Source: a virus. From it: 61,195 nt of DNA. The stretch spans positions 1 to 61,195 of the IMG/VR virus record IMGVR_UViG_3300024320_000838, one strand, 5' to 3'. Below are positions 5,086-8,041 of this stretch, one piece after another (position 1 is the first letter of the stretch; every line of letters starts with the position of its first letter). A model generated the notes under the pieces. The model saw nothing but the letters and a program-made list of their open reading frames with translations, searched no databases and was not told the DNA's origin. Position numbers and translations under genes: made by a program.

Positions 5086-5304
5086 CTAATATTTTTTTAT
5101 CATTTTTGTCATGTTGTAGGTATCAATCCACTCCTTTCCCCATTTAATAGCAGATTGTGGATTGGCAAACCCACTGCTACAAACTTCTGTTATCCAGGAG
5201 GCTTTTCCCTTTCTAAGTACACCAACAATCCATTCTTGTTCAGGAACGGTTCTTGCTAGCGGGCTAACTTGTAACCACCATCCTTTTTCATATAGTTCTT
5301 CCAT
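5086..5304 (-). CDS. Hypothetical protein, 72 aa
   Basis: A small globular protein with several Trp residues and the segment EQEWIVGVLRKGKASWITEV; no family recognised. It is the first gene of the leftward glycan module and faces the divergent plus-strand island across a 182-nt intergenic region with a perfect inverted repeat. Confidence 0.6.
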   Translation of the reverse strand: MEELYEKGWWLQVSPLARTVPEQEWIVGVLRKGKASWITEVCSSGFANPQSAIKWGKEWIDTYNMTKMIKKY

Positions 5305-5341
5305 ACTATTTATATATCTATTTGATTGAAAAGTTTACAAT

Positions 5342-5377
5342 GACATAAAGTATTATATGGTACTAATACTTTATGTC
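5342..5377. promoter_or_regulatory. Perfect 14-bp inverted repeat in a divergent intergenic region
   Basis: GACATAAAGTATTA (5342-5355) and TAATACTTTATGTC (5364-5377) are exact inverted complements separated by 8 nt. The repeat lies between the divergent genes starting at 5304 (minus) and 5487 (plus). A position upstream of both genes suits an operator or an mRNA leader hairpin better than a terminator. The rest of 5305-5486 is AT-rich leader without a gene. Confidence 0.7.
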
Positions 5378-5486
5378 TATATGACTATAGTACTTAAGTA
5401 TTATTTTTACGTTAAAGTCACTTAAAATATGGAACTATTGCGCACGTTTGACATAGATACATCAAACAAATAAATTATTTAAAATT

Positions 5487-5852
5487 ATGAAAAGAAACGT
5501 TACAAAAACACTATTAACCTTAGCACTTTTAACAAGTGGAAATGCAATGAGTCAATATGACTTTATTCAAAAACCGGATGTTGTAGAATCTTCAAACATG
5601 TTAGAAAACTTCAGAGTTAGAATCTACCCAAATCCTTCTTTTATTTCAGAAGTAAAAATGGAATGGGAAGACTGGGCAGAAATAACAACGGTCGAGTTAC
5701 TTAACACTGATACTGGACAAACTAAAATTGTAGAAATAGAAGAAGGCAGAAGAAAAGTAAGAATTGAAAACTTATTAGAAGGAAATTACATTGCCAAATT
5801 TTATCAGAAAGATACTTTATTCGGTACTAAAAAAGTTATAGTTATTAATTAA
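5487..5852 (+). CDS. Secreted stand-alone T9SS C-terminal sorting domain, 121 aa
   Basis: Residues 1-22 (MKRNVTKTLLTLALLTSGNA, then MSQ) form a signal peptide. The mature part has FRVRIYPNPS near residues 42-51, then alternating strands, a GNYIAKFY strand and a KKVIVIN end. This is the layout of the type A C-terminal domain by which Bacteroidota export and anchor proteins through the type IX secretion system. In ordinary cargo the domain follows a large passenger; here there is almost none. It is on the plus strand, opposite to the phage core, and was probably taken from a host. Confidence 0.75.
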   Translation: MKRNVTKTLLTLALLTSGNAMSQYDFIQKPDVVESSNMLENFRVRIYPNPSFISEVKMEWEDWAEITTVELLNTDTGQTKIVEIEEGRRKVRIENLLEGNYIAKFYQKDTLFGTKKVIVIN

Positions 5853-5954
5853 ATGGAATCTAGATTAAAAGATTTAAAAGCAGGAGGAGCATTGTTTATA
5901 TCAATACTCTTTCTGCTTCAACTGACAAGACTTATTATTATAAGCACAATTTAA
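5853..5954 (+). CDS. Single-span membrane mini-protein, 33 aa
   Basis: The ATG follows directly on the stop of the preceding gene (TAAATG). It encodes MESRLKDLKAGG and then one hydrophobic span (ALFISILFLLQLTRLIIIS). It sits inside the plus-strand island, 32 nt before the subtilisin-like gene. It is short, but coupling and composition support a real gene. Confidence 0.5.
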   Translation: MESRLKDLKAGGALFISILFLLQLTRLIIISTI

Positions 5955-5986
5955 AAAAACAAAAATAAATTAAAATAGATATAAAG

Positions 5987-7471
5987 ATGAAAACAACAGT
6001 AAAAACCTTAGCGCTATCATTATTAGCAATTTTCTTAACTTCCATGTCATTTGCACAGGGCGTAGTGTGGGCAACAGTTAAAAATCCAAATCAAATAACA
6101 GAAAAAGAAGAATGGCAGATTTTAGATGCTCAATATAACCTTTCAATAGAACAGGCATTACCAGCATCTAGAAATGAAAGACTTCTAAATGTTTATGAAA
6201 TTAAATGTGACTGTGACGTAAATGACCTTTATGTAAGTATGGTAGAAATGCAAGGAATCAAAGGAGTTGAATTTGGACCTAATTACAAATCATTAGAAGA
6301 ACCTATAGATTATGGGGTATTTAATAATTACGGAGTAGCACCAACAGATCCTGGATATTGGTCTCACTGGCCTTTAAAATTAACAAACGCTGCGCAGGCT
6401 TGGAATTTCTCAAAAGGAGATTCTGCAACTGTTGCAATATCTGATCAAAATTACTTTGTAAATCACGAAGAAATTGTAGGAAAGGTAGTTCATTATGATA
6501 ACACAAATACATCTAGTCAAGGTCATGGTACTGCAGTTGCTATTCTTGCTGCTGGAAATACCAATAACCCACTTAATGCCAATGGTTTAGGACTTGCCAG
6601 CCATGGTTACAATTCTAAACTTGCACTTTATAGAATGAACTACAATGAAGTTCTAGAAGCTTCATATTCAGGTTACAGAGTTATAAATATGAGTTGGACT
6701 AGCGGATGTACGTTCAATCAATATATTCAAGACGCAATGAATGAAATATATGATAATGGTACATTTTTAGTTGCAGCTGCCGGAAATGGTTCAACATGTG
6801 GAGGTTCTGAAGCTCTTGTTTACCCAGCAGCATTCGAAAATGTATTCGCAGTATCTAGTGTTGGTGCTGATGATAAACACTGGAATACTTATGGAAGTGG
6901 TGGAACTCACCAACATAATGCAAGTGTAGATTTAATGGCTCCTGGTTATGTAGTACCTTTATCTGCAGCACCTAACTGGTATCTATTCGGAAGCGGAACT
7001 TCTTATGCTGCTCCTATGGTTACAGGTACAGTTGGTCTTATGCTTTCTTTAGACCCTACAATAACTAATGAAGAAATTGATAGTATACTAAGATTCACTG
7101 CAAGAAATATAGACGATTTAAACCCTGATTATATAGGGCAAATGGGAGCTGGAAGATTAAATGCAGGATACGCAGTTTCTCAAGTTCAAAGAAACTTAGA
7201 TATTGAAAATTCACAAGGTGGAATATCACCAATAGATGACGTCATTATCATATCTAAACCAGATGCTCAAATAGATTCAAACTCAGATGCAAGTGCAATA
7301 ATCATATCTAATGGAGAAGGTACTCCGGCTAATGTTTTAAAGACTATTAAAGAAGAAAATCTTAAAATAATAAACATGATGGGTCAAGAGGTTAATCCTG
7401 ATAAACTTTCTACTGGAATCTATATGATTATAAAAGAAAACATTGTAATTCAGAAGATAGTAGTTAATTGA
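5987..7471 (+). CDS. Secreted subtilisin-like (S8) protease with T9SS-like C-terminal domain, 494 aa
   Basis: Residues 1-23 are a signal peptide (ends SMSFAQ). The S8 catalytic triad is complete: Asp153 in VAISDQNY, His180 in GHGTAVA and Ser339 in GSGTSYAAPM, with the oxyanion Asn267 in AAAGNGS. Residues 24-110 look like an inhibitor-type propeptide. The last ~40 residues (KIINMMGQEV...LSTGIYMII...QKIVVN) match the end of a type A T9SS sorting domain. The enzyme would be exported through the host Sec and type IX systems and cut surface or extracellular proteins. It is on the strand opposite to the virion genes. Confidence 0.88.
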   Translation: MKTTVKTLALSLLAIFLTSMSFAQGVVWATVKNPNQITEKEEWQILDAQYNLSIEQALPASRNERLLNVYEIKCDCDVNDLYVSMVEMQGIKGVEFGPNYKSLEEPIDYGVFNNYGVAPTDPGYWSHWPLKLTNAAQAWNFSKGDSATVAISDQNYFVNHEEIVGKVVHYDNTNTSSQGHGTAVAILAAGNTNNPLNANGLGLASHGYNSKLALYRMNYNEVLEASYSGYRVINMSWTSGCTFNQYIQDAMNEIYDNGTFLVAAAGNGSTCGGSEALVYPAAFENVFAVSSVGADDKHWNTYGSGGTHQHNASVDLMAPGYVVPLSAAPNWYLFGSGTSYAAPMVTGTVGLMLSLDPTITNEEIDSILRFTARNIDDLNPDYIGQMGAGRLNAGYAVSQVQRNLDIENSQGGISPIDDVIIISKPDAQIDSNSDASAIIISNGEGTPANVLKTIKEENLKIINMMGQEVNPDKLSTGIYMIIKENIVIQKIVVN

Positions 7472-7488
7472 TATCTGAATAAATCTTA

Positions 7489-7528
7489 AAAAGAATGGAC
7501 TGTTAAAATATTAGCAGTCCATTTCTTT
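7489..7528. terminator. Bidirectional intrinsic terminator between convergent genes
   Basis: AAAGAATGGACTG (7489-7502 region) pairs with CAGTCCATTTCTTT, with one bulged base; a T-run lies on the right side and an A-run on the left. It lies between the plus-strand protease gene (stop 7471) and the minus-strand gene ending at 7511, whose stop codon is within the hairpin. Confidence 0.75.
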
Positions 7529-8041
7529 TATCTTTATATTGATATTATGTGGAGCTGTTTCATCTCCTCCAAAATAAGGATATAATTTATATTTAATGTA
7601 ATTGCCAGAACAGGGTCTAGGCGTGTATTTAGAAACTCTATCGACTGTCACAACATAGAAACCATCTATAATATCAATTTCTAAATTTACTGGTTTGTCA
7701 ATTTCTATATTTTTTATTTTTTCGAAAATAAATTCACTACCCTCATGTTTGAACCAATGAAGTTCTAAATTTCCATTTAACCATCTCCAACCAAATCTAA
7801 TAGAACATCTCATGTGGTGTTCACCACAATCACTAATTCCCCATAATTTATTTATATCGTACTGGTTTATTGGGTCTTTAGACTTGTATTTTGCAGTCTC
7901 ATCAAAAATTACCTGAAGTTTAAAATTTGTTTTTTTCGTAGTTCTTGCTCTCCAAACTGACCTATGTCTATTTTTACGGATTTTATATTTTTTAAATCCA
8001 TTCTTATCAATACCTAATAAACATCTCCAGAATCTTTTCAT
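7511..8041 (-). CDS. Jelly-roll carbohydrate-lyase/lectin-like protein, 176 aa
   Basis: The C-terminal pattern YIKYKLYPYFGGDETAPHNINIKIKEM and the WGISDCGEHHMRCSIRFGWRW segment resemble beta-sandwich polysaccharide lyase or concanavalin-like domains. I cannot place the family, and no catalytic residues can be assigned. A basic N-terminus (KNRHRSVWRARTTKK) replaces any signal peptide. It overlaps the next gene by 4 nt and probably belongs to the virion or depolymerase set. Confidence 0.5.
   Translation of the reverse strand: MKRFWRCLLGIDKNGFKKYKIRKNRHRSVWRARTTKKTNFKLQVIFDETAKYKSKDPINQYDINKLWGISDCGEHHMRCSIRFGWRWLNGNLELHWFKHEGSEFIFEKIKNIEIDKPVNLEIDIIDGFYVVTVDRVSKYTPRPCSGNYIKYKLYPYFGGDETAPHNINIKIKEMDC

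Follow-up and report, generated by a model that had tools for sequence, protein, structure and literature searches.

A phage cassette of an S8 protease, a membrane micropeptide and a cargo-less type IX sorting domain, possibly captured from Bacteroidota for use at the infected cell's surface

In a fragment of a T4-like phage we find an island of three plus-strand genes amid minus-strand genes, which encode a lone type A sorting domain of the type IX secretion system (T9SS), a small membrane peptide and a subtilisin-type protease, and relatives of which recur together in other phages. We tentatively read this cassette as a captured host secreted-protease module whose products would be exported by Sec and the T9SS and act at the cell surface, a reading that comes close to an even chance without quite reaching it. 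The cassette appears to derive from marine or freshwater bacteria and to be built for exit via their secretion machine.

The island and its three genes

The window, by which we mean the whole stretch of 61,195 nucleotides that was analysed, encodes a terminase whose nearest relatives belong to uncultured phages of 462-642 kb, followed by Tenacibaculum phage PTm1. An identical island, over 2,301 aligned bases, lies on a contig of 78,889 bases (G424) that reaches past the window on both sides. The coordinates and strand given for the three genes in the original prediction are right, and the other long plus-strand open reading frames of the window are all nested in longer minus-strand ones. The island comprises the following features:

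5341..5378, no strand: 14-bp inverted repeat, GACATAAAGTATTA / TAATACTTTATGTC, read from the sequence in the gap between the minus-strand gene starting at 5304 and gene 1
5441..5486, plus strand: region upstream of gene 1, GCGCACGTTTGAC plus ATAGATA at -34; putative promoter
5487..5852, plus strand: gene 1, lone type A T9SS sorting domain, 121 aa (TIGR04183/PF18962 matches, orthologues, seven-strand model)
5853..5954, plus strand: gene 2, single-pass membrane micropeptide, 33 aa, MESRLKDLKAGGALFISILFLLQLTRLIIISTI (relatives in all 20 phage loci whose contig continues)
5987..7471, plus strand: gene 3, S8 (subtilisin-type) protease, 494 aa (PF00082, E 6e-30; 12-sequence alignment, model, tree)
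7493..7524, plus strand: hairpin resembling a terminator, with a T-rich tail, where the protease gene and the minus-strand gene 7511-8041 converge

Conserved relatives rule out chance open reading frames for all three genes. Gene 1 had been predicted to be a sorting domain without cargo, and its layout agrees with this: a predicted signal peptide (about residues 1-22) and a short linker of about 20 residues are followed by a complete type A C-terminal domain (CTD; residues 46-121), with no cargo between them. The CTD covers model positions 1-71 of the 72 of TIGR04183 (E 1.1e-4, 22.1 bits against a cut-off of 23) and 1-75 of PF18962 (E 4.1e-4, 21 bits against a cut-off of 27), and the relative of gene 1 in the phage locus L004 lies above both cut-offs, with 26.3 and 28.1 bits, respectively. 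The predicted structure, which is confident in the CTD only (pLDDT about 90 over residues 51-110), shows seven beta strands after an unstructured N-terminal part, in agreement with the seven-strand Ig-like sandwich of type A sorting domains. Its top viral structural match is annotated 'Secretion system C-terminal sorting domain', a fold search of the PDB ranked generic FN3/Ig folds first, and a sequence search of the PDB using the lone-CTD profile gave zero matches. Orthologues of gene 1 were found in the phage loci L003 and L004 and in Crocinitomicaceae.

The protease consists of a signal peptide (about residues 1-23), a propeptide (24-97), a catalytic domain, a linker and a short CTD (about 458-494). 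Its phage relatives share about 47-53% identity, and in the alignment of 12 phage sequences the triad D153, H180 and S339 and the oxyanion residue N267 are invariant. The body of the AlphaFold model is poor (mean pLDDT 48), and we used the model for the propeptide alone; residues 24-97, its sole confident part, are arranged as beta-alpha-beta-beta-alpha-beta, and since this is the strand and helix order of an S8 propeptide, the enzyme is likely made as a zymogen. The tail lacks the YPNP half and contains motifs B, D and E as known from short type A CTDs: across the 12 sequences Gly466 and Gly477-x-Tyr479 do not vary, and Lys490 hardly does. A profile comparison aligns the tail with the long CTDs found in cellular relatives (hhalign 91%). 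The Peptidase_S8 match, the invariant triad and the three tail motifs confirm the predicted S8 protease with a complete triad and a T9SS-like C-terminus. In the profile searches with both C-termini, gene 1 gave full-length matches just below both cut-offs, and no public curated CTD model matched the protease tail at reporting thresholds. The signal peptides of both proteins were judged by eye and show the features of Sec signals, namely a short charged start, a hydrophobic core and a cleavage site before Gln. As putative T9SS cargo, gene 1 and the protease would be exported in a PorV/SprA-dependent manner. The claims of phage-encoded T9SS-type proteins, of a lone sorting domain and of an S8 protease with a T9SS-like end are supported.

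When a phage collection was searched for relatives of the protease, S8 matches were only partial, at 24-30% identity, and no relative of the pair was found. PADLOC assigned the protease to a generic 'subtilase' profile (E 4.9e-20) and gave gene 1 a marginal match (E 0.006), with no match that had partner genes; the reading as a known anti-phage defence system was rejected on this generic profile and the lack of a partner gene.

The 33-aa membrane peptide predicted between genes 1 and 3 is a real gene, since it is conserved across phage loci. Members of its family have 32-39 aa and a single membrane segment, and one lies directly after the protease or the lone CTD, a few bases past its stop codon or overlapping it, in each of the 20 phage loci that run on (12 distinct sequences); the four phage loci that lack it all end inside the protease. 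A profile of the 12 distinct sequences recovered its members from the 4,738 short open reading frames of all loci. After these, the profile scored best with a 68-aa membrane peptide of cells, encoded near S8 genes (E 4e-4), where E-values for such short membrane peptides are soft and membrane segments yield false matches; the resemblance is weak, with 0.1 bits for the window peptide alone and 79% in a profile-profile comparison. The protease probably requires the micropeptide as a partner at the inner membrane.

Conservation in phages and kinship with Flavobacteriales

All three genes occur together in three divergent phages, ordered CTD-peptide-S8 in the window, S8-CTD-peptide in L003 and CTD-S8-peptide in L004, and other phages carry S8-peptide. 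That the genes keep company though their order is reshuffled speaks for the cassette being a functional unit, in which the lone CTD is dispensable, since most phage loci are without it beside the protease; most of the phage contigs are fragments, and the lone-CTD counts cover the surroundings of the protease only. In the 10 loci inspected, the cassette or protease lies directly 3' of a gp23-like major capsid gene. Often the cassette is followed 3' by a gene for another secreted protein with a CTD-like tail (with GEVED, fn3 or CUB domains); the window's phage has one such gene immediately beyond the left edge of the window (L122:351-1391). That the island, with its own strand and terminator-like hairpin, is an autonomous, host-derived secreted-protease cassette is a proposition we put only just below an even chance.

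The surroundings of the cassette hold further genes that we record here. L022:5092-5781, a phage gene directly before the protease, combines SprB repeats (PF13573, E 3.6e-10) with a signal peptide and a short CTD; SprB is the gliding adhesin. At L003:9247-9916 there are two short open reading frames resembling pieces of a major capsid protein. To the left of the window on contig G424, L122:2521-5456 encodes three tandem paralogues of about 300-340 aa with motifs of the type IYRGAS...FLSFTTSL, which look like ADP-ribosyltransferases by these motifs; two of them were searched against Pfam, with no match. The same phage encodes a NAMPT.

The sequence TATCTAT occurs 32-47 bases before all 12 cassette-leading genes of the relatives and before 17 of 198 open reading frames overall, 14 of the 17 being cassette-region genes. 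In the window its reverse complement, ATAGATA, is found at -34 of gene 1, and the GCGCACGTTTGAC upstream of this gene resembles the CACCTTTGACC stretch ahead of cellular lone-CTD genes. TATCTAT is absent upstream of the cellular S8 and lone-CTD genes, many of which have a TTTG-type stretch, a Bacteroidota promoter type, at the same distance. The element upstream of gene 1 may serve as a promoter. Elsewhere in the window, rGATATATAA has 11 copies, all on the minus strand and many shortly before genes (positions 5319, 15029, 18393, 20468, 32395, 34716, 37871, 40009, 41392, 54399 and 56580), and is likely a late promoter motif of this phage. TTTATGTCGTTT followed by a TATATTTATACTATAA-like sequence has seven minus-strand copies (2062, 23121, 23677, 38860, 44377, 47159 and 48977), some before metabolic genes, e.g. 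that of DNA ligase; these sites probably form a second, early promoter class. An inverted repeat, CTATTGG...CCAATAG, lies just before the start codon of the protease in L012, L013, L022 and L029, the version in L029 being CTATTAG...CTAATAG, an apparent compensatory change.

The search for both genes in related phages and host genomes recovered, beside the phage cassettes, relatives in Flavobacteriales and Crocinitomicaceae. Protease relatives lie on 35 GTDB contigs, nearly all from Flavobacteriales, and end in long CTDs. In the phylogenetic tree the phage proteases form one clade (support 98/96), whose sister comprises seven Flavobacteriales sequences (94/86; L032-L043) and is distinct from the cellular clade beside the 68-aa peptide. 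Since the tree places the phage enzymes beside this other cellular clade, capture of all three genes from a single donor is unsupported, and the tree lends no support to the S8 gene having been taken directly from the lineage beside the 68-aa peptide.

A whole-genome profile search found a full-length lone-CTD orthologue in 6 of 20 host genomes picked for carrying the protease (E 1e-28 to 1e-41), and a pattern-based scan of genome contigs with the three phage CTDs had confirmed no orthologue. Most of the cellular genes occupy a conserved chromosomal site between a def/lipoprotein pair and coaX, and such chromosomal orthologues rule out the lone CTD as a phage invention. Across 240 genomes of the family Crocinitomicaceae, lone-CTD genes, single or doubled, occur in 12 and the 68-aa peptide in 14 (one a weak match), all 12 being among the 14; the peptide-bearing genomes also have S8 genes, which in most cases share a contig with the peptide and lie near it. 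This co-occurrence may be explained by shared ancestry, because the genomes may be one lineage. They encode PorV (13 of 13) and SprA (12 of 13), and have 52-94 PF18962 matches each. One Crocinitomicaceae lineage holds cellular relatives of the protease and the lone CTD, and likely of the micropeptide too; host identity is based on gene kinship only.

The lone CTD may simply be a detached CTD of the protease, given that the best two non-lone matches in the 240 genomes are CTDs of this family's S8 proteases; in a tree of the CTDs, however, the S8 CTDs fall well outside the lone CTDs, on long branches, and the 20 genomes of the whole-genome search had been picked for the protease.

Related cellular genes deserve mention. 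Lishizhenia genomes (G008 contig C3, G020 contig C4) contain arrays of genes for small secreted CTD-like proteins of about 112 aa, to which a single gene at L092:1492-1830 is related. The cellular lone-CTD proteins of L102, L109 and L112 (224-237 aa) have two apparent tandem CTDs. A cellular S8 gene and the main porV are separated by about 15 kb in at least six genomes (G005 C4, G006 C5, G010 C1, G163 C9, G299 C1 and G002 C22).

A possible surface-acting module and its rivals

Under the reading we favour, the protease would leave the cytoplasm through Sec, be kept inactive by its propeptide and be passed across the outer membrane by SprA and PorV by way of its short CTD. Its substrates would then be proteins at or close to the outside of the infected cell, adhesins or other surface proteins being the most probable ones, and their cleavage would keep progeny from being caught on the spent cell and leave late-coming phages with fewer receptors. 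The micropeptide would serve the protease at the inner membrane, in protection, activation or export, and the lone CTD, rather than poisoning PorV, the translocon or the sortase, would work through one of them as a trans-acting accessory. In F. columnare, gld and spr mutations confer phage resistance (PMC9233685), and T9SS-dependent surface features therefore matter for phage entry in this group. Because loss of such features gives resistance, adhesins or receptors are, by analogy, plausible targets, and the stripping of surface receptors that had been suggested is possible for the putative exported protease. A stronger version, in which the protease, micropeptide and lone CTD are a three-part Crocinitomicaceae system whose CTD-only protein influences export or anchoring by the T9SS in trans, captured by phages as a portable surface-remodelling device, we consider doubtful.

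The cassette could instead aid lysis or release, the micropeptide disturbing the inner membrane late in infection in the manner of a holin or spanin and the protease loosening the envelope or extracellular matrix. The universal coupling of protease and micropeptide and the site directly behind the major capsid gene in the 10 loci inspected are what one would expect of such a role; however, the signal peptide and CTD point past the outer membrane, the cellular 68-aa membrane peptide beside an S8 gene suggests a normal cellular role, and the upstream element of the cassette is unlike the late-type rGATATATAA motif of the phage, which leads us to rate this reading unlikely. That the genes are passengers, benefiting the host through nutrients released by the secreted protease or carried at random, with no part in the phage cycle, is a further step down, to improbable. 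Moron genes are typically set on the opposite strand with a terminator of their own, and the protease and lone CTD have clear cellular relatives, but the upstream element is phage-specific, and the retention of triad, propeptide, CTD motifs and micropeptide across deep divergence argues for long selection in phages.

Two other readings concern the lone CTD. It could act as a regulator, signalling from the surface in the manner of PorA and raising T9SS expression so that more of the phage's secreted proteins are exported. PorA, a small protein with a CTD, provides input to the PorXY-SigP pathway (PMC7712824), and several secreted proteins whose tails resemble a CTD are encoded in and around the cassette, yet the phage protein has no separate N-terminal domain like that of PorA, only about 20 linker residues preceding its CTD, and the gene is missing from most phage loci; we find this quite improbable. 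Least probable of all, to the point of being very hard to sustain, is the decoy put forward in the original prediction; spelt out, the lone CTD would sit on PorV, the SprA translocon or the sortase, bring T9SS export and gliding to a stop and thereby shut out superinfecting phages. It has in its favour a complete CTD without cargo, energy-independent loading of substrates on the translocon (PMC10994853) and the phage resistance of Flavobacterium columnare T9SS mutants (PMC9233685). Against it, the protease of the same cassette would itself need the T9SS, T9SS-positive Crocinitomicaceae keep the lone CTD as an ordinary chromosomal gene, and in Flavobacterium johnsoniae all highly produced sfGFP-CTD type A fusions were handled, which led the authors of that study to infer an excess or a recycling of PorV (PMC12618676). 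On these grounds a blocking role is disfavoured, and the decoy claim is unsupported.

Comparison with known systems

No conserved grouping of an S8 protease with a micropeptide and a lone CTD turned up in the literature that was searched. A whole phage clade retains an apparently host-derived secretion cassette over deep divergence, and because the clade keeps it, phage use of the T9SS for surface remodelling of infected Bacteroidota is now testable. A cargo-less sorting domain kept in cells and phages questions the view of the CTD as an address label only, and the universal membrane peptide of 32-39 aa would give a secreted protease a partner that is new and simple to test.

The presence of T9SS cargo in a phage had been called unexpected, which is too strong: in 2020, cargo with type A sorting domains was reported on Cryophage, with superinfection exclusion as a suggested role (PMC7468147). 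As far as the parts of that report available to us go, the cargo is an endoglucanase, a GH39 and a PA14 protein, and an S8 protease, micropeptide or lone CTD is not described. With the type A cargo of Bacteroidota (TIGR04183/PF18962) the island shares signal peptides, a CTD starting with YPNP, a GxY motif and a basic end, and gene 1 the seven-strand model; it differs in that gene 1 is free of cargo, the protease has the short form of CTD only, without the YPNP half, and both are phage-borne. The catalytic domain is common to subtilisin/thermitase-type S8 proteases (PDB 1dbi, 1thm), to which the phage enzyme adds its own propeptide and short CTD. Short CTDs in Prevotella intermedia support cleavage and glycosylation and have been modelled binding PorV (PMC11969387); like the phage protease tail they have motifs B, D and E close together and a three-strand prediction, whereas they come from another branch of Bacteroidota and the phage tails are unrecognised by public CTD models.

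A close counterpart of gene 1 is the Crocinitomicaceae chromosomal lone-CTD gene (L067-L072, L097-L099), with 31-47% full-length identity, the same combination of signal peptide and CTD and the signature PNP...KVK..W.DWA; unlike the phage gene, the cellular copies lie between def/lipoprotein and coaX genes with no adjoining protease. PorA of Porphyromonas gingivalis is likewise a small secreted CTD protein acting on the T9SS itself, but, at 246 aa with an N-terminal domain of its own, it differs from the phage protein (PMC7712824).
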